Below, piece after piece: positions 17,708-62,670 of a stretch of DNA of 64,000 nt. Below the pieces are notes generated by a model. It ran no database searches. It had not been told where the DNA came from and worked only from the letters and a program-made list of their open reading frames with translations. Numbering within the stretch: position 1 is the stretch's first letter; each line of letters begins with the position of its first letter. The position numbers and the translations under genes are program-made. This stretch comes from a halophilic archaeon SHRA6 (lineage in GTDB: Archaea; Halobacteriota; Halobacteria; Halobacteriales; Haloferacaceae), in contig SOPS01000001.1 of NCBI GenBank assembly GCA_005239175.1, positions 992,001 to 1,056,000 of the forward strand, read 5' to 3'.

Positions 17708-20700
17708 CTACGTCGTCCGGAGATAGTCCTGGGTGGGCTCGTACACCTCGCCCTTCCGGCGAAGCTTTTCAATTTCTTTTTCGGCTTTGGTTTGGTCCAT
17801 CCCGATCTCACCGGCGCGTTCGAGGATTTCGTCGATCGGCGCACCCTCCTCGTACTCCGCTTCGATGTCAGCGATGAGGCTTTTGATGTTCTTGATCCGA
17901 TCGCGCTGGCTTTTCGAGGTGCCCGTCTCGACGACGTCGGCATCGAACTCCCCGGTTTCGGGATCGACGCCGATGTCCTGCAGACACGAGCGGACGATGT
18001 CGATCACGCGCGTTGCGTCTTCGGGCTCGACAGTGTCCGACAGGCGGATGCGTGCGCTCGCCTCCGAGAGCCTGACGAGTGCCTCAAGCTTTCGGGCGGT
18101 GACCGGAACCGGCGCGTCCTCATCGGCTCCTTTGGCCCGAAGATCGACATAGAAGTCCCGGATCGCCTCCTTTGCCTCGTCTGTCATCGTCGGGAAGCAG
18201 CTCCGCTTGGCGTGGGCGATGTACTTTCTGAGGAGTTCGGCGTCGATCTCGGGGGCAACTTCCTCTGTCACTTCGTCGACCTGCGCTTGAGTGAACTCGG
18301 AGGTCGTGAGCCGCTCGCGTTGGGTGTTCAGCTCCCCGGCGTAGTTCGTTTTGAGGATGTGCTCGGCGAGGTTGGCGTCGTGGTCGGGATCGGGCTGATC
18401 TGTGACGGTGAAGATCAGATCGAACCGCGAGATCAACGCCGGCTCGAGGTCGATCTGCTCGCCGATCGGCTCGTAGCGATCGAACCGGCCGTACTTGGGG
18501 TTCGCCGCGCCGAGCAGCGAGCACCGCGATTTGAGTGTCGCGTTAATTCCGGCCTTCGAGACGCTGATCTGCTGTTGTTCGAGCGCCTCGTGCATCGCAG
18601 ATCGGTCCTCTGAGTTGTGGACGACCATGCCGTTGGCGACGAAGTTGTGCGTCTCCTCGACGGTGAGATCGTAGACCTTCGGATCGGGTCGATCCGCCAC
18701 AGTCGACGCATCAACCCGGGAGACTGAGGCGACGCGCCGGTAGGTCACGTCGGCTTGAGGTTCTTTGGGCTGGTCAGGCTCGTACCTATCGATCGCCGTT
18801 TCCGCTGACTCGGAGGCGACAACGGAGCCACCGTCCGTGGCCGTGGCTGGTGACTGCGTCGGACGGTCGTCGGGAACGTACACCCGATCGCCCGCCTCAA
18901 GCGCTGCGGCCGGCCGTTCGATCCGCTCGCCGTCTTCGTAGACAAAGAACGGATGATCGGGCGTCGACGTAAGCGACTCGCCAGATTCGAGTGTCACCGC
19001 CGTAAGTTCCTCGGGCGCGTCGTACTCGTGGACCGCCGTTACCGATCGGCGGACGAGCCGACCCGCCTCGGTCATCGTCCACACGTCGAAATCGACATCG
19101 CGGATTGTGCGACCGTTCGGGAGTGGCTCGATCGCGCCTGTGGTGGCGGCCTCCTCCGCAATAGCCTCGATCCGTTTGCGTTGGCCGTCGCCGAGTCGGA
19201 CGAGCGTGTCCCCGGTCACACAGCGCATCTTGTCTAACTCGTCGACAGCGGCGATTCCTTTGTCTGCCAGAACGAGCGCGCCGGCTTCGAGCGTCCACTG
19301 CTGGCCGTCGCCGAAATCATCGCGTACAGCTGCTGCGGTGTTGTGCGTAATCACGCCGTTGGCGACGAAGTTGTGCGTCTCCGGGACGGTCAGGTCGTAG
19401 ACCTCCTTCCGCCCGGTGTCTTCGATCGAAACGACCTCGTCCCACCGGAGTTGCGCGTCGATGGCTTCCTCGACGATCGCGTGAGCCTCGCCCAGATCGA
19501 GATCTGCACACATCGCCGTCGCGCGCGATCGAGAGGGATTGTCTCCGCGGGTCAGATTCGTATGATACGACCCTGCTGGTATGTCCACGGCTTCAAGCGC
19601 AGAGCCAACCGGGAGTTTCTCGCCCCGTCGATCGGTATCTTCGACAACCTCTTGGAGCGCTTTTGCTTTGACCGACGCGCCGAACCCAATCCGATCCGCG
19701 AAGCGATCGAGATTTCGGCCGTAGATCGCAAGATGGGTCTGTACCGCTTTGGTCTCGATCGTCGGCCCGGAGTCGAGTTCGTACGTGCCGCGGCGATCGC
19801 GGTCGCGGGTTCGTGAACGGATACCGTACGTTTCGAGCATGAGCTGTACCTGTCGGGCAAGTTCGGGGCTGATCGTCGAGAACTGGACGCTCGATCCGCC
19901 GTCGGTTCGCCCACACACCGAGCCGTCAGCATCGAACAACCCCTGGAGGAATGCGTCGGCGTGTTCGGCCGTCGTCAGCCGCGGATTGAGCGCTAACTCG
20001 TCTTTCGGTGTCCGCATCCCAAGGTTTGCGAACCACCGCGCGATCGTGATGCTCTGGATCCGAATGCACGGGACTCGCCCGTCTTGACGCTCGATCGCGA
20101 CCGACTTGTCGAACTGCGATTCGATGATCGACGCGGCTCGGTTCAAAATTTCCTCGTCGCTGTTCGAGATCCGAACCATGCCACGGTTGTCGTCCCGCCG
20201 ATCAAGCGCGATGTCGCCGTCACCGAAGACCAGACCGACAAGATAGAGCAACTCCTCATCGAACTCGGTTGGAATGTTGATGCTGTCGCCGTGGTTGACC
20301 ATCGCCCGATCGATCGTAATATCGTCAAAATCCGCGTCGATCGCCGCAAGAATTCGACCAAGTCGATCCCGCGGGAGGTGTCTGTTCGACAGCGAATCGT
20401 AAATAAAGTCCTCTGACAGTCCGATCGCAGCCGCTGCATCCCGAAGCGTGCCGAACGTCGCGGTGAGCTCACGGCGAAGGAACTCGAGAGATTCTGCGGT
20501 CGGCTTGAGTTTCTCGGTGGTCAACCCGAGGAAGTCTGATACCGGCGGCGTCGATCGATCGACGGCGTCGTATTTCGGCACCGCGACGTGATCGCCGGGT
20601 TCGACATCCGACATCGATCGCCACTCAAGACCCTCGTCACTACAGACGAGCACTGGCGTGTTAACCGACGTTTCGAGCCGCTTGCCGTGGGCAGTTTCGA

Positions 20701-22510
20701 GGCGACGGCATGGCTTTTTCGGCATCCGCCACACGTGAGAACTCGATCGGCGGTCGATCGAGCCAGCGTCGCGGTTGTACGTGTAGAGGCCGTATTCAGC
20801 TTCAGCCGGTACGTTCTCATCGACCGGCTTGGGGTGATGTTCGTGGGCGAGTTCACGGATCGGACGCAGTCCGTCGTCGGTGTGGATCAGCGTATCACCG
20901 GTGACACAAAGCCCCGCCGAAGATGAGCCTTTCCCAGAGGTGTACACCGATCGCGGGGCGATATTCTGGATGTACGAGAGCATCTGGGAGTTGTGCGAGA
21001 CGACTTCGTTCGTGAGGTAGGTGTGTGTTCCCTCGATTTCGAGATCGTACACCCACGCCTCGTTGGGCTCGTAGCGGTCGATCGAGGCGATTTGATCCCA
21101 CCGAACGCTTTGAGACACTGACGTCGTGGGCGATCGAGACGCGGTCCCCCCATCTGCGATCGCTACCGGTGCGGTAGCGATTCGATCGCCAACGCTGAGC
21201 CGATCGGCCCGTCGAGCAACGTGACCGCCTGCGGTGGGGACAAAAAGCGGGTGCGACGGCGTGACCTCGAGTTCGCGGCCGGCGTCAGTTCGGATCCGGT
21301 ACATCGTGTCGGGGGTCTCGCGCTTCCAGACTTTTGTCGCGGTCGCCGGCGCGATCGTCCCGTCAGCGTGGAGCGACGGCACCTCGATGGCAACGTCGTC
21401 CCACACGCCGTCGTCGATCGGTTTTGGATCGGTTAGATTTGGTTCGACGAGTTCGCGGATTGGAGCCGATCGTCCGTCTGCAAGGGTGACCGCGGTGTCT
21501 CCTGAGACGCACTTGCCGGTCCCCGGATCGCCGATCAACAGCATGTGCAGGTCGCCACGGATCCGCGAGCCGTCAGGGAGGTGTTTGGTGACGCCCGAAA
21601 ACAGCTGTAAGATCATCGCGAGCTTCTCCTCGTCGTAGCCGTAGATCGACGGCGCGACCGAGGCGACCATCTTTTCGTAAATGTCGGGGTCCGAAGAGAG
21701 TTCGACGATCTCGGTCACGTCCTCCTCAGAGATGTCCATGTCTTCGAACTCCTCGTCCTCGACAGTAATCGAGACGCCGTCCATGTAGAGATCGAACAGC
21801 GCGGATTTCTCCTGCCCGTCCGACATCTGCTCGATGTGTAACACCCCGACGACAGTGACATGGTCGCCTGGAGTCACCTTCCCGGTGATGTCGTCTTCGA
21901 TGTTGATGTCGATGCTTTGAGGGGTTTCGCCGCCGCGAAGTCCTTCGGGGCTCTCTTGGACCCGAATCTTCTGGGCGTCGATGAATTCGGATTGATCAAA
22001 GTTGATGCGGAACGGCCCCTGTCGCTCACAGCCTTGACACTCGTGGGGCTCTTGGAAGCCGCCGTCGGCCTGCGGAATGTACGTCATCGTGCCACAGCGT
22101 TGGCACTCGAAGGCCGCCTCGGTGATCTTCGGCCGGACGTCGGTTGCCTTGCGGACGATTCCCTGTACCGCGATCAGCGTACCGATGTGATCGTCGTGGA
22201 CCCGAATGTTTCGGATGTCGATCGTTCCCGGGAGATTTCGCATCCGGACGTGAGCGTTGCCGAGTTTGACATCTGCAGGGAGGTCGAACAGCCGTAGTCC
22301 CTCTTCAGCGTACTCGGTGAGCTGGTCGGGTTTCGCCCGAAAGTCCTCCGCGAGGTCACGATCGAATCGGTACAGATCGTCGTAGTCGATGTACAGCGAT
22401 CGCTGCTCGTTCGGGTACCGCTGGGCGAGTTTCCCGATCTCATCCCGGTAGTACCCCCGATAGAACTGAATGAACCGCTCCGTGAGGTCCTGGTTTCCCG
22501 CCTGAGCCAT
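17708..22510 (-). CDS. mcm: replicative helicase MCM with three inteins
   Basis: 1600 residues, of which about 700 are MCM and 900 are inteins. The N-terminal domain has a zinc finger (C136, C139, C158, C161) and the OB fold. The AAA+ core has Walker A GDPGTGK-S interrupted by intein 1 after K333, GSSSAGL-T interrupted by intein 2 after L534, and Walker B LADKGIAAVDELDKMR interrupted by intein 3 after R1096. The arginine-finger region ALISRFDLIF and a C-terminal winged helix follow. Once spliced, exteins of 333, 27, 39 and 301 residues give the normal haloarchaeal length. MCM is the hexameric replicative DNA helicase. All inteins must be removed because each breaks the ATPase site or its neighbour. 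Confidence 0.95.
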   Translation of the reverse strand: MAQAGNQDLTERFIQFYRGYYRDEIGKLAQRYPNEQRSLYIDYDDLYRFDRDLAEDFRAKPDQLTEYAEEGLRLFDLPADVKLGNAHVRMRNLPGTIDIRNIRVHDDHIGTLIAVQGIVRKATDVRPKITEAAFECQRCGTMTYIPQADGGFQEPHECQGCERQGPFRINFDQSEFIDAQKIRVQESPEGLRGGETPQSIDINIEDDITGKVTPGDHVTVVGVLHIEQMSDGQEKSALFDLYMDGVSITVEDEEFEDMDISEEDVTEIVELSSDPDIYEKMVASVAPSIYGYDEEKLAMILQLFSGVTKHLPDGSRIRGDLHMLLIGDPGTGKCVSGDTAVTLADGRSAPIRELVEPNLTDPKPIDDGVWDDVAIEVPSLHADGTIAPATATKVWKRETPDTMYRIRTDAGRELEVTPSHPLFVPTAGGHVARRADRLSVGDRIATAPVAIADGGTASRSPTTSVSQSVRWDQIASIDRYEPNEAWVYDLEIEGTHTYLTNEVVSHNSQMLSYIQNIAPRSVYTSGKGSSSAGLCVTGDTLIHTDDGLRPIRELAHEHHPKPVDENVPAEAEYGLYTYNRDAGSIDRRSSSHVWRMPKKPCRRLETAHGKRLETSVNTPVLVCSDEGLEWRSMSDVEPGDHVAVPKYDAVDRSTPPVSDFLGLTTEKLKPTAESLEFLRRELTATFGTLRDAAAAIGLSEDFIYDSLSNRHLPRDRLGRILAAIDADFDDITIDRAMVNHGDSINIPTEFDEELLYLVGLVFGDGDIALDRRDDNRGMVRISNSDEEILNRAASIIESQFDKSVAIERQDGRVPCIRIQSITIARWFANLGMRTPKDELALNPRLTTAEHADAFLQGLFDADGSVCGRTDGGSSVQFSTISPELARQVQLMLETYGIRSRTRDRDRRGTYELDSGPTIETKAVQTHLAIYGRNLDRFADRIGFGASVKAKALQEVVEDTDRRGEKLPVGSALEAVDIPAGSYHTNLTRGDNPSRSRATAMCADLDLGEAHAIVEEAIDAQLRWDEVVSIEDTGRKEVYDLTVPETHNFVANGVITHNTAAAVRDDFGDGQQWTLEAGALVLADKGIAAVDELDKMRCVTGDTLVRLGDGQRKRIEAIAEEAATTGAIEPLPNGRTIRDVDFDVWTMTEAGRLVRRSVTAVHEYDAPEELTAVTLESGESLTSTPDHPFFVYEDGERIERPAAALEAGDRVYVPDDRPTQSPATATDGGSVVASESAETAIDRYEPDQPKEPQADVTYRRVASVSRVDASTVADRPDPKVYDLTVEETHNFVANGMVVHNSEDRSAMHEALEQQQISVSKAGINATLKSRCSLLGAANPKYGRFDRYEPIGEQIDLEPALISRFDLIFTVTDQPDPDHDANLAEHILKTNYAGELNTQRERLTTSEFTQAQVDEVTEEVAPEIDAELLRKYIAHAKRSCFPTMTDEAKEAIRDFYVDLRAKGADEDAPVPVTARKLEALVRLSEASARIRLSDTVEPEDATRVIDIVRSCLQDIGVDPETGEFDADVVETGTSKSQRDRIKNIKSLIADIEAEYEEGAPIDEILERAGEIGMDQTKAEKEIEKLRRKGEVYEPTQDYLRTT
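18614..19222 (-). other. intein 3 of MCM (mini-intein, after Walker B)
   Basis: Residues 1097-1299 (203 aa). Begins CVTGDTLVRLGDG, contains the block B TPDHPFFV, ends VYDLTVEETHNFVANGMVVHN, followed by Ser1300. No endonuclease motifs. Its two terminal regions closely resemble those of intein 2 (both start CVTGDTL and share VYDLTV.ETHNFVANG), suggesting recent common ancestry. Inserted after DELDKMR of Walker B. Confidence 0.92.
19340..20908 (-). other. intein 2 of MCM (with LAGLIDADG endonuclease)
   Basis: Residues 535-1057 (523 aa). Begins CVTGDTLIHTDDG, ends VYDLTVPETHNFVANGVITHN, followed by Thr1058. Contains two dodecapeptide motifs of a homing endonuclease, LYLVGLVFGDGDI (about 755-767) and LQGLFDADGSV (about 855-865), so it may still be mobile. 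It sits between GSSSAGL and T in the sensor/loop region. Full-length bifunctional intein. Confidence 0.93.
20990..21511 (-). other. intein 1 of MCM (mini-intein, in Walker A)
   Basis: Residues 334-507 (174 aa). Starts with Cys in CVSGDTAVTLADG (block A), block B TPSHPLFV, ends with block F/G VYDLEIEGTHTYLTNEVVSHN, with Ser508 as the first C-extein residue. No LAGLIDADG endonuclease is present and its length is that of a mini-intein. It splits GDPGTGK from S in the P-loop. Boundaries were set from the splice residues C..HN/S. Confidence 0.93.
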
Positions 22511-25229: not shown

Positions 25230-26294
25230 TCAGATCGATACTGCGTACAGACTATCGTCATTGCTGCCAAAGTAGAGTGTCTCGTCTACGAGCGTCGGTG
25301 ACTCGTGTACTGTCCCGTCAGTTTCAAACAGCCACTGTCGTTCACCGGACGTGCGATCGAGTGCATAGACCCCTGCGGCGGTGGGCCCGCCAGCACCAAT
25401 GTAGAGTGTCTCGTCCGCAATCACCGGGGAGGAGTTGTAAATGGTGCCGCCGGTTTCGAACGTCCACACTTCGTCTCCCGTTTCGGCCTCAAGCGCATAC
25501 ACCGTCCCGTCAGCACTGCCGACATACACCGTCTGATCGAGGACTGTGGGCGAGGACTGGACGCGATCGGCTGTCTCGAACGACCACTGTTCTGTTCCAT
25601 CCTGTCGGTCGAGCGCATACAGCTGCGAATCGTAACTCCCGACATAGAGCGTCTCATTCCACCGTGCGACCGCACTATTCACGTAATCACCGGTCCCATA
25701 GCGCCATTCTTCCTGTCCATTTTCAGTCCGAACGGCATACACATTCCCGTCGTTGGAGCCAACATACAGCAGTTCCGCATCAAGAACGGCACGCGAAAGA
25801 ATATCATCACCTGGTGCGTCAAAGTGCCAGTTCGGCTCACCAGTCTCTCGAGAGAGCGCAAAGAGCGTATTACTCCCTCCGCTTCCGATGAAGACCGTCT
25901 CCTCAGTAACTGTTGGTGTTGCACCGACGTATCCCTCGGTATCGAATTCCCACGTTTGTTCTCCGTCTTCTTTGGTTATCGCGTAGACGTACCCGTCCCA
26001 ACTGCCACTGTACACCTGCTGCTGTCTGACGATCGGAGACCCAGCAACGCTGGCAGCGGTCTGAAACTGCCACACTTCGTTGCCGGAGTCAACGTCCACT
26101 GCGTAGACGCTCCCGTCTCGACTTCCAGTATACACGAATCCGTCGTCGACGGCGGGAATTGATGTCACACTATCGCCCGTCTCAAACGTCCATTTCAGAC
26201 GGGTTTCGGAGCCGCTGGCGTCGAACGCGTGACAGCCACTGAAGAGTGTGGCTCCGCCAGCACCGACCCCAGCGAGAAATCCACGGCGGTTCAT
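25230..26294 (-). CDS. second Tat-type lipoprotein with PQQ-like beta-propeller
   Basis: 354 residues. MNRRGFLAGVGAGGATLFSGC shows twin arginines at 3-4 and a lipobox with Cys21, the same layout as the neighbouring 746-residue lipoprotein. The remainder is about seven to eight blades of the repeat YAVDVDSGNEVWQFQT / YALDRQDGTEQWSFETA / YALEAETGDEVWTFETGG, ending with YFGSNDDSLYAVSI. It lacks the C-terminal sandwich of its neighbour. Start is the ATG at 26292-26294. Both genes probably arose by duplication and may be cotranscribed (158-base gap). Confidence 0.8.
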   Translation of the reverse strand: MNRRGFLAGVGAGGATLFSGCHAFDASGSETRLKWTFETGDSVTSIPAVDDGFVYTGSRDGSVYAVDVDSGNEVWQFQTAASVAGSPIVRQQQVYSGSWDGYVYAITKEDGEQTWEFDTEGYVGATPTVTEETVFIGSGGSNTLFALSRETGEPNWHFDAPGDDILSRAVLDAELLYVGSNDGNVYAVRTENGQEEWRYGTGDYVNSAVARWNETLYVGSYDSQLYALDRQDGTEQWSFETADRVQSSPTVLDQTVYVGSADGTVYALEAETGDEVWTFETGGTIYNSSPVIADETLYIGAGGPTAAGVYALDRTSGERQWLFETDGTVHESPTLVDETLYFGSNDDSLYAVSI

Positions 26295-26563
26295 AGCGAA
26301 ATGTTTGAAACAAATCAAGTTATACTCCGCGAACTGTCAAACAACTATTTTATTTATCGCACGGCGAGAGAGCACAGCGCACGCAAAATATCCGATTATA
26401 GTGGCTGATCGCGGGTATGCTGGTGTGGCGGTACGGGCGATCGATGATACTAGGTCACCGGTAGACGGAGACACACTGTCGTAACCGCTTATCGAGTTGA
26501 AACGGTTGTGAGCCTGCGCGATCTTTTAGCTGATTCACCAGATCAGGCCAAGACAAGGGCTAT
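26295..26563. other. AT-rich intergenic stretch, no gene seen
   Basis: Contains short poor frames and scattered TATA-like tracts (caactattttatttatcg near 26340) that could serve the lipoprotein gene on the minus strand. No open frame or RNA that I can support. Confidence 0.4.
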
Positions 26564-26858
26564 GTCGTCACTCCTCGCGTTGCTCGGAGATGACGGGCAC
26601 GATGGGATCCTCGAGAGCGAAGCGATCGAGGGTGAATCGTGCTCTGAGCGAACAGAATGAGCGAACGAGTACGATGGGATTCGAACCCCGGTCGCTCACG
26701 GTGTTCGCTCCCTGCTTCGAATCCCTGCGTCGTCACTCCTCGCTTCGCTCGGAGATGACGGGCACGATGGGATCCTCGAGAGCGAAGCGATCGAGGGTAC
26801 ATCGTGGCCGTGAGTGAACGCAGTGAACGAACGGGCACGATGGGATTCGAACCCACGA
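26564..26858. repeat. direct repeat tract next to tRNA-Arg
   Basis: Two copies of a 70-bp unit, 26564-26633 and 26729-26798, differ at only two positions (cgcgttgctc versus cgcttcgctc). Each continues into a tract ending in a tRNA-like acgatgggattcgaaccc, so the whole repeat is about 125 bp with 165-166 bp spacing. Each unit includes a small inverted repeat, cctcga...tcgagg. The second copy runs directly into the genuine tRNA-Arg 3' end, the first into a degraded copy of that end. This is typical of a duplication at a tRNA 3' end and could be the scar of an integrated element. Confidence 0.75.
26664..26690 (-). pseudogene. tRNA-Arg 3'-end fragment
   Basis: The plus-strand sequence acgatgggattcgaaccc (26671-26688) is identical to the end of the real tRNA-Arg gene 166 bases away, but the acceptor differs (gagtacg versus gggcacg) and the sequence past the T arm is unrelated. 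It is a non-functional partial copy of the T arm and acceptor, in the same orientation as the gene. Confidence 0.7.
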
Positions 26859-26936
26859 CCGTCGGATCGCTCCCCACCACAGCGATGCTGCGGCGGTTAG
26901 AAGTCCGACGCTCTATCCAGACTGAGCTACGTGCCC
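26832..26936 (-). tRNA. tRNA-Arg (anticodon UCU) with intron
   Basis: On the minus strand: acceptor GGGCACG/CGTGCCC with discriminator G, D arm TAGCTCAGTCTGGATAGAG, anticodon stem TCGGA/TCCGA, loop C-TTCTA-A with anticodon TCT, T arm GTGGG-TTCGAAT-CCCAT. A 30-nt insert lies between positions 37 and 38. Removing it gives a 75-nt mature tRNA including discriminator. The intron folds into a canonical bulge-helix-bulge, so this is functional and not an interrupted pseudogene. Confidence 0.92.
26868..26897 (-). other. tRNA-Arg intron (bulge-helix-bulge)
   Basis: 30 nt between positions 37 and 38. In RNA: intron A, then CCGCCGCAGC-AUC-GCUGUGGUGG (10-bp hairpin with a 3-nt loop), then GGAG which pairs with exon CUUC (32-35) to give the central 4-bp helix, and CG before A38. 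The two 3-nt bulges, UA-A and CG-A, are cut after their second base. This matches the motif of the archaeal tRNA splicing endonuclease without exceptions. Confidence 0.9.
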
Positions 26937-27046: not shown

Positions 27047-27631
27047 ATGCGCGTAGTTGGAACCGTCGGACTTCCCGGCAGCGGGAAAGGCGAGATTGCG
27101 GCGGTCGCGGCCGAGCACGACATCCCCGTGATCACGATGGGCGATGTGATCAGACAGGCCTGTCGCGATCGCGGCCTCGACCCCACAGAACACCACGGCG
27201 AGATGGCCCAAACCCTCCGGGAGGAAAACGGTCCCGCGGCGGTCGCCGAGCGATCGCTCCCGATGATTGAGGCGGCGATCGACGCTCACGAGGCCGAAAC
27301 CGTCCTCATCGATGGGCTGCGATCGCTCGTCGAGGTCGAAACCTTCGAGGCCGCCTTCGGCGATGCGTTCACGCTCGTCAGCGTCGAGGCGCCCTTCGAT
27401 CTGCGGGCCGAACGGCTCGCCGAACGAGGCCGCGACGCCTCCGATCGCGATCTCGAATCGCTCAGGGCCCGCGACGCCCGCGAGCTTGAACTCGGCGTCG
27501 GCGAAGTGATGGATCGGGCAGACGTAACAATCGAAAACACCGACACGCTCGAAGCGTTCCACGATCGCGCCGAGGCAGTGTTGCTGGGAGAACCAGCAAA
27601 AACAGCCGGACAGACGGGGGAAGAACAATGA
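27047..27631 (+). CDS. UPF0200 family P-loop kinase-like protein
   Basis: 194 residues. N-terminal Walker A VGTVGLPGSGKGEIA, ITMGDVIRQACRDRGL and FTLVSVEAPFDLRAERL are features of the adenylate-kinase-like dephospho-CoA kinase superfamily that archaeal databases list as UPF0200. Its true substrate is unproven. The stop overlaps the following UPF0201 gene by four bases; the two are a conserved archaeal pair. Confidence 0.8.
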   Translation: MRVVGTVGLPGSGKGEIAAVAAEHDIPVITMGDVIRQACRDRGLDPTEHHGEMAQTLREENGPAAVAERSLPMIEAAIDAHEAETVLIDGLRSLVEVETFEAAFGDAFTLVSVEAPFDLRAERLAERGRDASDRDLESLRARDARELELGVGEVMDRADVTIENTDTLEAFHDRAEAVLLGEPAKTAGQTGEEQ

Positions 27632-49594: not shown

Positions 49595-51297
49595 AGGACG
49601 TATCGTTGGGTAAGTGGCAGTTCGGCGGCCGGTTCGCAGGTAATGTGTTCGCCGTCAACCATGACGTCGAACGTTTCTGGATCGATCTCAATGTCGTCCG
49701 GACAGTACGTGTTGTGCAGCATATCGGATTTTGCCAGCGTGCGAGCGCCCTCGATCGGTACGACCGGAGTGTCGAGGCCGTACGTTTCGCCGACGTTCGC
49801 CTCTGCAGCCGCCGGAGAGACAAACGAAAGCGACAGTGCGTGTTTCGCTTTACCCATCGCGCCGGCGCGCTCGCGCTGGATGATCGGCTCACAGGTCATG
49901 AGCGATCCGTTGGCCTCGCCCATCTCCGAGTGGACCGGGAAGCCGCCTTTGAACACCATCGCGGGTTTGATCCCGAAGAAGGCAGGATCCCACAGCACGA
50001 TGTCGGCGACCTTTCCGGGTTCGAGTGAACCGACGTAGCTGTCGATGCCCGCGGTGATCGCCTGGTTGATCGTGTACTTCGCGATGTAGCGTTTGATCCG
50101 GGCGTTGTCCGCGCCGGTGTCCTCGTCTTCGGTGAGCGGCCCTCGCTGGGACTTCATCTTCGAGGCCGTCTGCCAGGTCCGCGGGACGACTTCAGCCATC
50201 CGGCCCATCGCCTGGGAGTCGGAGGTCATCATCGAGATTGCACCGAGATCGTGCAATACATCCTCGGCAGCGATCGTTTCCGAGCGGACCCGCGACTCGG
50301 CGAACGCGACGTCTTCTGGGACGTCGGGATTCAGGTGGTGACAGACCATCACCATGTCGAGGTGTTCGTCGAACGTGTTGTCGGTGTACGGCATCGAGGG
50401 GTTCGTCGAGGAGGGGAGCATGTTCGGCTCGCCGACCATCTCCATGATATCAGGCGCGTGTCCGCCGCCAGCACCCTCGATGTGGAACAGGTGCATCGTG
50501 CGGCCGTCGACAGCGTCGAAGGTATTCTCGACGAACCCGGCCTCGTTAAGCGTGTCAGTGTGCATACACACCTGTATGTCCTCTTCATCGGCGACTGAGA
50601 GGGCGGTATCGATCGCCTCTGGCATCGACCCCCAGTCCTCGTGGAGCTTCAACGCGCACGCACCGGCATCGATCTGCTCGTACAGCGGTTCAGGCTTCGA
50701 GGCGTTTCCCTTCCCGTAAAAGCCGACGTTGACGGGCCACGCCTCCGCAGCTTGGAGAAAGCGTTTGATGTTTTCCGGACCGGTGGTCGTCGTGGTCGCA
50801 CCGCCGCCGTAGCCGCCGCCGAGCATCGTCGTGATCCCTGCGGCGAGGGCGTGTTCGTGCAACTGTGCGGAGTTCCAGTGGACGTGGATGTCGAGCGCGC
50901 CGGCGGTGACGATTTTCCCCTCCGCGGGATACGCGTCCGTAGAGGGCCCGACGACCATGTCGACGCCGTCCATCGTATCTGGGTTGCCAGCCTTGCCGAT
51001 ACCCGCGATCTTCCCGTTTCTGATGCCGATGTCGGCAGCGACGATTCCGAGGACTGGATCGATGATTGTCGCATTCGTCAACACCCAATCGAGTGCGCCT
51101 TCGGCCTGCGTGACCCCCGGAGCCATGCCAAGCCCGTCGCGAAGCGTCTTTCCACCGCCGAAGACGGCCTCGTCGCCGCGGGTCCGGAGATCGCGTTCGA
51201 CTTTCGCGAACAACTCGGTGTCGCCGAGCCGGACCCGATCGCCTTCCGTCGGCCCGTAGAGGGCGGCGTAGTCGTCACGATCGATCGTCCGCGTCAT
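49591..51297 (-). CDS. ureC: urease subunit alpha (UreC)
   Basis: 568 residues, usual length. Nickel site: [19 protein letters not shown] with the HxH pair, and the carbamylated lysine in [37 protein letters not shown] carries the flap histidine region. Hydrolyses urea to ammonia and carbamate. The gene overlaps ureB and ureA by four bases each; operon order ureB-ureC-ureA is as in other haloarchaea. Confidence 0.97.
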
Positions 51298-61476: not shown

Positions 61477-62670
61477 CTACTCGGCCCCAGCGGCGGTTTG
61501 CTGGACCGGCGGTTCAGTCCGGATAACCTGGACGACAAAAGCGATTGACAGGCAGCCGAGCCCCGCAAGCAGGAGCCACGCGGCCCGGTAGCCGAACGTG
61601 TCCGCGAGGTAGCCGAATGCCGGCGGCGCGAGCAGTGCTCCCGAGGTCAGCGCGAGCTGTCCGCCGCCGGTTGCGCCGCCCATCTCCTCGGGCGCAACGA
61701 GCGTCGCCATACACGAATAATAGACGCCGGTGAATCCGAGCACAAAGAAACCGAGGCCAACGAGGGCAGCGGTTGCGATGAGGACGCCATCCGCGAGCGC
61801 GACTGCAACGAACAACAGGACGCCAGCAATTGTCTGAACGAGCAGGATCGTCCCGATTGATCGCCGCGGTTCGCCGGGCAATGCGTCAGCGAGCCAGCCG
61901 GTGATCACCCGGCCGACGCTGCCTGAGACCTGCAGCGCTGCGAGGACGACGCCGCCGTAGGCGACTGTCGAGCCGATCGATTCGTCCATGTAGAGGATGG
62001 TGTACCCGGTCGTCGTGAACAGTCCTGCACCGAGAAAAAAGCCCGCAATCGTCAGCGATCGGTAGGGTTTGTTCTGCGCGAGTCGTCGAAAGTCCGGGTA
62101 CGATGCCGTTCCGCTTTCGCTGTCAGTCCGGTAGCCGGCGACGAAGAGCAAAGCGACGAAGAGCCCAACACCCGCAGCAATCCAAAATCCCGCCTGCCAG
62201 AACAACACACCCGCGATCGACGTGACGAACAGCGCGCTGATTCCCGATCCAGCGGTGACGCCGACCTGTTTGATTCCGATCGCAAGATTCTGCCGGCCCG
62301 CCTCGATGTTGTCGAAGATCGCCTTGTTCGTGCCGGGCATCGCCGTTCCGTACAGCGATCCGAGCAGAAACGCCGCCAGAAGCAACGTTGGATACGACCA
62401 CGCCATCGAGACGCCCAGGGCGCCGACAGACAGTCCAAGCAAGCCGACAAAGAGCGTCCGGCGCTCGCCGAATCGATCGGTGATCGCCCCAAGCGGAAGC
62501 AAAAACACCGCATATCCAAGCGTCAGCGACGTGACGACGAGGCCGACGTAAAATCCCGAAAGGCCAAACTCGTCGCGAAAAAACGGCGTCGCCGCGAAGA
62601 TTGAGTAGTAAATGATACTCGCGGCGACCTGCCAGCCCAGAATCATCGAGACGACCCGCCAGTAGCTCAT
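61477..62670 (-). CDS. major facilitator superfamily transporter
   Basis: 397 residues with twelve predicted membrane helices. The loop 2-3 signature ITDRFGERRTLFVGLLG is typical of MFS, repeated in the second half as GWLADALPGEPRRSIGTILL. The substrate is unknown; position next to the carboxylic-acid gene set suggests an organic anion. Starts MSYWRVVSMILGWQ at the ATG 62668-62670. Confidence 0.92.
   Translation of the reverse strand: MSYWRVVSMILGWQVAASIIYYSIFAATPFFRDEFGLSGFYVGLVVTSLTLGYAVFLLPLGAITDRFGERRTLFVGLLGLSVGALGVSMAWSYPTLLLAAFLLGSLYGTAMPGTNKAIFDNIEAGRQNLAIGIKQVGVTAGSGISALFVTSIAGVLFWQAGFWIAAGVGLFVALLFVAGYRTDSESGTASYPDFRRLAQNKPYRSLTIAGFFLGAGLFTTTGYTILYMDESIGSTVAYGGVVLAALQVSGSVGRVITGWLADALPGEPRRSIGTILLVQTIAGVLLFVAVALADGVLIATAALVGLGFFVLGFTGVYYSCMATLVAPEEMGGATGGGQLALTSGALLAPPAFGYLADTFGYRAAWLLLAGLGCLSIAFVVQVIRTEPPVQQTAAGAE

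Follow-up and report, generated by a model that had tools for sequence, protein, structure and literature searches.

The window analyzed here, a stretch of 64,000 nucleotides from the genome of the haloarchaeon SHRA6 (3.36 Mb in five contigs, completeness 99.26), carries on its minus strand a tRNA-Arg(UCU) gene that is interrupted by 30 nucleotides. In the Rfam search of the window, all 71 model positions of RF00005 were aligned to 26936-26832 (-), with an insertion in the anticodon loop, and ARAGORN, once introns were allowed, read the same stretch as tRNA-Arg(tct) with a 30-nt intron; in its default mode, the program missed the gene at 26832-26936. Both results bear out the original prediction of a tRNA-Arg(UCU) with a 30-nt insertion at position 37/38, to which the minus strand, then unnamed, can now be added. 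The gene, its parts and its neighbors are as follows:

25230-26318 (-): PQQ-repeat protein gene, beside the tRNA gene
26564-26806 (-): tandem repeats 3' of the tRNA, possible attachment-site remnants (repeat search; comparison with other loci)
26832-26936 (-): tRNA-Arg(UCU) precursor, 105 nt, with intron (RF00005, 60.3 bits; ARAGORN with introns allowed)
26898-26936 (-): 5' exon to tRNA position 37, 39 nt, with the anticodon UCU at 26901-26899
26868-26897 (-): intron, 30 nt, at position 37/38 (ARAGORN and sequence)
26832-26867 (-): 3' exon, 36 nt, starting at tRNA position 38 and ending with the discriminator base (ARAGORN and sequence)
27047-27631 (+): AAA_17-domain protein gene, beside the tRNA gene and divergent from the PQQ-repeat gene

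The insertion lies one base 3' of the anticodon, at the 37/38 site of canonical introns of the bulge-helix-bulge (BHB) kind, and its removal leaves an intact tRNA of 75 nt; intronless genes of four other genomes match this product from end to end at 99% identity. A second tRNA-Arg(UCU), reported by ARAGORN in default mode at 62332-62417 (-), was rejected as false, as it has no Rfam support and is absent from the genome-wide RF00005 matches.

Two further features of the window concern other genes. The MCM helicase gene (1600 aa, 17708-22510, minus strand) contains Intein_splicing in three stretches together with a LAGLIDADG domain, and is interrupted by intein sequence. A match to the 5' ureB sRNA family of Rfam at 50855-51120 (+), with 50.5 bits (cut-off, 40 bits), may simply be due to resemblance to urease coding sequence.

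Other tRNAs and splicing enzymes of the genome

The tRNA inventory of the genome consists of 44 RF00005 matches, all of which were read by ARAGORN, and a single gene among them carries the UCU anticodon. The other arginine tRNAs (CCU, CCG, UCG and GCG) are encoded by separate genes, all intronless. Three of the 44 genes bear introns, namely Arg(UCU), Met(CAU), with 32 nt, and Glu(UUC), with 34 nt. No tRNA-Trp is found among the 44 RF00005 matches, and it should be considered that a long intron may hide this gene from the model.

Two papers on Haloferax volcanii (PMC7714728, PMC2584109) describe three intron-containing tRNAs, all interrupted at 37/38 within an hBHBh' structure: tRNA-Trp(CCA), with 103 nt, tRNA-Met(CAU), with 75 nt, and tRNA-Gln(UUG), with 31 nt. 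The endonuclease of this species is described there as being of the alpha-2 type and strict for hBHBh'. The original prediction had named Trp, Met and Gln as the usual hosts of haloarchaeal tRNA introns, a list which agrees with that of Haloferax volcanii but does not hold for SHRA6, where Gln(UUG) is intronless and where Met(CAU), Glu(UUC) and Arg(UCU) bear introns. When compared to the Haloferax volcanii introns, the Arg(UCU) intron shares the position, the hBHBh' architecture and EndA, and has a length near that of the Gln intron, whereas it differs in its isoacceptor, which lies outside the Haloferax list of three, and has no box C/D guide.

The tRNA-Glu(UUC) gene with its 34-nt intron lies outside the window (G000:C2:453041-453149, locus L043). 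Interrupted or half matches suggest that Glu(UUC) is likewise interrupted in at least 7 of 60 genomes, SHRA6 included (G000, G001, G002, G008, G013, G017 and G029), and at least 45 of the 60 show an uninterrupted full-length match of 91% or more. Judging from sequence among the matches listed, the Glu(UUC) intron is rarer than the Arg(UCU) intron.

The genome also encodes both splicing enzymes that belong with a canonical BHB intron. EndA is represented by one gene, identified by its catalytic domain alone (PF01974, 91 bits, in a 382-aa open frame), and RtcB by one gene, in which PF01139 is found in two stretches of one 498-aa frame.

A potential bulge-helix-bulge at the exon-intron junctions

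The sequence permits the following elements around the junctions:

UCGGA:UCCGA: anticodon stem of the precursor (sequence)
26900-26903 (-): 5' strand, CUUC, of the 4-bp central BHB helix (sequence; paired in 21/21 orthologous introns)
26870-26873 (-): 3' strand, GGAG, of the same helix (sequence; GRAG in 21/21)
26897-26899 (-): 5' bulge, UAA, with the cut expected directly after A37, where the intron begins (sequence)
26867-26869 (-): 3' bulge, CGA, with the cut expected before A38 (sequence)
26874-26896 (-): intronic hairpin, 10 bp with a 3-nt loop (sequence and comparison of 21 introns)

The expected cuts follow the canonical BHB rule, by which the cleavage points lie in both bulges. With two 3-nt bulges, a 4-bp helix and flanking helices, the arrangement is that of hBHBh', and the two bulges, the helix and the 10-bp intronic hairpin of the original prediction are confirmed as a canonical BHB that the sequence allows. 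The prediction had also described the structure as being without any mismatch, which is correct only if wobbles are counted as pairs, as there are three of these, of which the 4-bp helix contains one (U-G) and the intronic hairpin the others (both G-U).

One should consider that folding alone does not prove the BHB, as the unconstrained RNAfold minimum adopts another register. With ViennaRNA energies for the core, the BHB structure has -24.6 kcal/mol and the minimum -26.8 kcal/mol, i.e. the latter is better by 2.2 kcal/mol. The minimum retains the hairpin and the anticodon stem and contains small internal loops in place of the 4-bp helix, the occupancy of which is about 1.5% in unconstrained RNAfold.

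For comparison, we used a set of 21 sequences, consisting of 20 relatives and the SHRA6 genome itself. The central 4-bp helix can pair in all 21 introns, with GRAG on the intron side throughout, and varies only from U-A to U-G; the exon-side CUUC is invariant because it belongs to the anticodon loop and is, therefore, fixed by the tRNA. The intronic hairpin shows covariation, as 9 of its 10 pairs have changed on both sides at least once, and 88.3% of its cells are paired across the 21 introns (11.7% without pairing). When the structure is counted in full, both partners have changed in 52 cells, as compared to 19.4 in shuffles, and the fraction of paired cells over the whole tRNA, 96.7%, falls to 42-51% once the partners are slid by 1-3 columns. 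When the intron itself was shuffled 200,000 times, 9,940 of the products had a possible 4-bp helix and 21 had a 10-bp hairpin at the right place, with none having both. Conservation across the 21 introns is stronger evidence for the BHB than the folding energy, and supports the canonical BHB that the junction sequence makes possible. The BHB intron is real and almost certainly functional.

Distribution of the intron among Halobacteriales

A BLAST survey with the spliced tRNA covered 60 genomes, SHRA6 included, and yielded 30 genomes with full-length intronless genes, 23 in which the gene is interrupted at this site and 7 undecided. The 23 include two genomes outside the set of 20 relatives, G031, counted as intron-bearing from coordinates and model score, and G052, added after later follow-up. 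For a broader view, two covariance models, one with the intron and one without, were run over 392 genomes of the order. When genomes were called by score (at least 96 bits with the intron model, or E ≤ 1e-18 with the intronless model), 123 were intron-bearing, SHRA6 included, at least 192 were intronless, none had both forms and 77 were left unclassified at these limits; the 192 is a lower bound, as some of the unclassified genomes (e.g. G032 and G028) have an intronless gene by BLAST. The places of the intronless genes, listed for part of the 192 genomes, are all 75 nt long.

The limit of 96 bits was set according to what lies on its two sides. Seven intron-model matches at 86-95 bits were examined and none was an Arg gene; six were tRNA-Met(CAU) genes with introns of their own (L256-L259, L265 and L267), and one was tRNA-Lys-like (L266), while the weakest Arg match read had 96.4 bits (L261 in G066). 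In L266 (G129:C12:12808-12919), the anticodon loop CTTTTAA resembles that of tRNA-Lys(UUU) and is followed by an insertion; ARAGORN reads this locus as tRNA-Ser.

Intron-bearing genes are found in 12 families and intronless ones in 9. At the genus level, 23 genera are intron-bearing only, 39 are intronless only and 16 are mixed. The rarity of an Arg(UCU) intron that the original prediction implied does not hold, as the same site is interrupted in 123 of 392 genomes. The comparison of orthologs that it proposed, to see if the intron is commonplace in all haloarchaea, gives a divided answer, i.e. the intron is common but far from universal, with 192 genomes intronless and 77 unclassified. The Arg(UCU) intron of SHRA6 is a new instance of a well-known kind, common in the order.

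When named genomes were scanned by pattern, 84 stretches were obtained, 80 of which are listed. Of these 80, 55 contain the full intron frame, with the same 4-bp helix and an intron length of 25-45 nt. Carrier genera include Haloarcula, Natrialba, Natronomonas, Halorussus, Halolamina, Halobaculum, Haloplanus, Halostella, Haloarchaeobius and Halogeometricum, with Haloarcula argentinensis, Halalkalirubrum salinum, Haloplanus ruber and Halorussus marinus as examples of carrier species. The same intron with the same helix is found in HikBin4, HikBin5 and ALOHA_A2.5_47 (Marine Group IV or related). Among the 25 listed loci without the full frame, 21 are bacterial and are taken as chance matches, and four are archaeal, namely L101, L113, L118 and L161. 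L101 comes from a Marine Group IV record; its intron is visible in L260, and its exon deviates from the strict pattern. When 294 genomes drawn from the phylum were searched with the intron model at E ≤ 1e-14, the 17 with a match all belonged to the order, among the matches listed; as the model contains haloarchaeal exons and the number of genomes outside the order is unstated, this speaks only weakly for absence beyond the order.

The introns of other Halobacteriales agree with that of SHRA6 in tRNA, site, 4-bp helix and bulges, and differ in sequence and length. The 26 aligned introns span 25-80 nt, with 23 of them within 25-33 nt. Two Arg(UCU) introns, of 80 nt (L263 in G157) and 55 nt (L264 in G107), come from one genus (g44) and have the same helix, with extra sequence that is G+C-rich.

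Introns in arginine tRNAs also occur in other lineages, including 'Pae', which we take to be Pyrobaculum aerophilum. The 'Pae' tRNA-Arg is interrupted at 32/33 (PMC2237900), and human pre-tRNA-Arg(UCU) contains an intron as well (PMC12397907); what these share with the SHRA6 gene is an intron in an arginine tRNA, while the lineage and, for 'Pae', the site differ, and no homology is claimed. A review states that introns occur in the genes of every isodecoder tRNA across sequenced archaeal genomes (PMC4090602). No mention of an intron in haloarchaeal tRNA-Arg(UCU) was found in the open-access literature searched, although we do not claim that it is unpublished.

Probable splicing, possible roles and history of the intron

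The gene and its site, the potential BHB with its conservation and covariation, the EndA and RtcB genes and the distribution described above lead us to consider it highly probable that SHRA6 has a functional tRNA-Arg(UCU) with an ordinary BHB intron at 37/38, which is spliced by EndA and RtcB, widely shared and labile. The gene would be transcribed as a precursor, and the substrate of EndA would be the part of it made up of the anticodon stem, the CUUC:GGAG helix flanked by the two 3-nt bulges, and the intronic hairpin. Cleavage by EndA would take place within both bulges, RtcB would join the exons, and the 30-nt intron would be released, probably as a circle. The mature 75-nt tRNA would decode AGA, and AGG too if wobble allows, with a CCU tRNA also being present. 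For the cell, the intron is probably near-neutral; it is mostly inherited vertically and has been lost or regained many times.

A role for the intron has been proposed in print, namely that it is retained as protection of the tRNA gene against viruses or plasmids that use the tRNA as an attachment site (PMC3293823). The repeats downstream of the gene are relevant here. Copies of 78 nt lie at 26564-26641 and 26729-26806, and a 44-nt copy at 26645-26688 matches 26811-26854; the repeats carry pieces of the tRNA 3' end, as attachment-site remnants would, and similar copies are found in other genomes, although all of this lies outside the intron and serves as context. To count such copies, the 3'-most 22 nt of the tRNA were compared, allowing at most 4 mismatches, to the 1000 nt downstream of each gene (only 326 nt for L071, which is intronless). 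Copies were found at 26 of 51 loci, somewhat less often beside intron-bearing genes (8/21) than beside intronless ones (18/30), yet this deficit, counted among loci that are related to one another, does not reach significance (Fisher p = 0.16). Moreover, the compared 22-nt stretch lies 3' of the intron, such that an insertion at 37/38 would leave a site of this kind uninterrupted and the counts offer no support for a protective role. A tyrosine recombinase domain (PF00589) is absent from the 64-kb window, the nearest match on the contig being some 54 kb from the tRNA (C1:964417-964956). We thus regard protection as an unlikely reason for the retention of the intron.

It is considerably less probable still that modification of the precursor requires the intron, be it in the role of guide or of recognition element, in the manner of tRNA-Trp. 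The consensus words of box C and box D are RTGATGA and CTGA, respectively. When these exact words were searched for in the 26 introns, none contained both, the box C word was present in one and the box D word in none. In addition, most of these introns (23 of 26) are just 25-33 nt long and 192 of the 392 genomes scored as intronless. The precedent is the Haloferax tRNA-Trp intron, which carries a box C/D guide, with modification preceding splicing (PMC2584109), but even there deletion of the intron has proved possible (PMC7714728, PMC4090602). Finally, the notion that the gene is a decaying copy and its insertion an unspliced accident can practically be dismissed: the BHB is not favored by RNAfold alone and the evidence here comes from sequence, but this is the sole UCU gene found in the genome, its cloverleaf is intact and the helix is conserved across genera with compensatory changes.

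Returning to an ordinary, spliced BHB intron as the preferred explanation, we considered its history on a tree of the RpoA' protein. This is a one-gene tree from a quick search, in which the two Marine Group IV rows serve as the root and 25 of 74 inner branches are open. It includes 77 of 80 genomes (there was no match in G042, while G015 and G058 were excluded for having matches in pieces; one of two matches was used for G047). The tree requires 14 changes of intron state, whereas shuffled labels require a mean of 26.1 and, over 300 trials, never fewer than 21; once two long-branch rows are removed, these values become 12, 25.3 and 19, respectively. As there are fewer changes than with shuffled labels, yet still 12-14 of them, the intron is inherited but labile. 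A loss-only history from an intron-bearing root takes 19 steps and a gain-only history 18, or 19 and 15 without the two long-branch rows, such that the step counts on this one-gene tree lean, if at all, towards gain.

Marine Group IV (Hikarchaeia) is the sister group of the haloarchaea. Given the common site, the common form and the presence of the intron in Marine Group IV, we judge an old intron that was lost repeatedly to be somewhat more likely, although convergent gain would face identical structural demands, so that a common form is also compatible with it. We give slightly less than an even chance to the more specific history in which the intron predates the split of haloarchaea and Marine Group IV and has since disappeared through repeated, precise losses, perhaps over a dozen of them and often within a genus.

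Should this history of an old intron and repeated loss be true, tRNA-Arg(UCU) would be among the best natural series for the removal and regain of an archaeal tRNA intron, and for asking if the change spreads by horizontal exchange of the tRNA gene, e.g. with integrating elements. As the insertion is present in some and absent from other species of one genus, in otherwise near-identical tRNAs, the rates at which archaea lose and gain introns could be measured cleanly here, and the same series suits a test of the proposal that such introns protect tRNA genes from integration. As a single gene, the SHRA6 locus is of small weight, but it corrects the impression that haloarchaeal tRNA introns are confined to Trp, Met and Gln.
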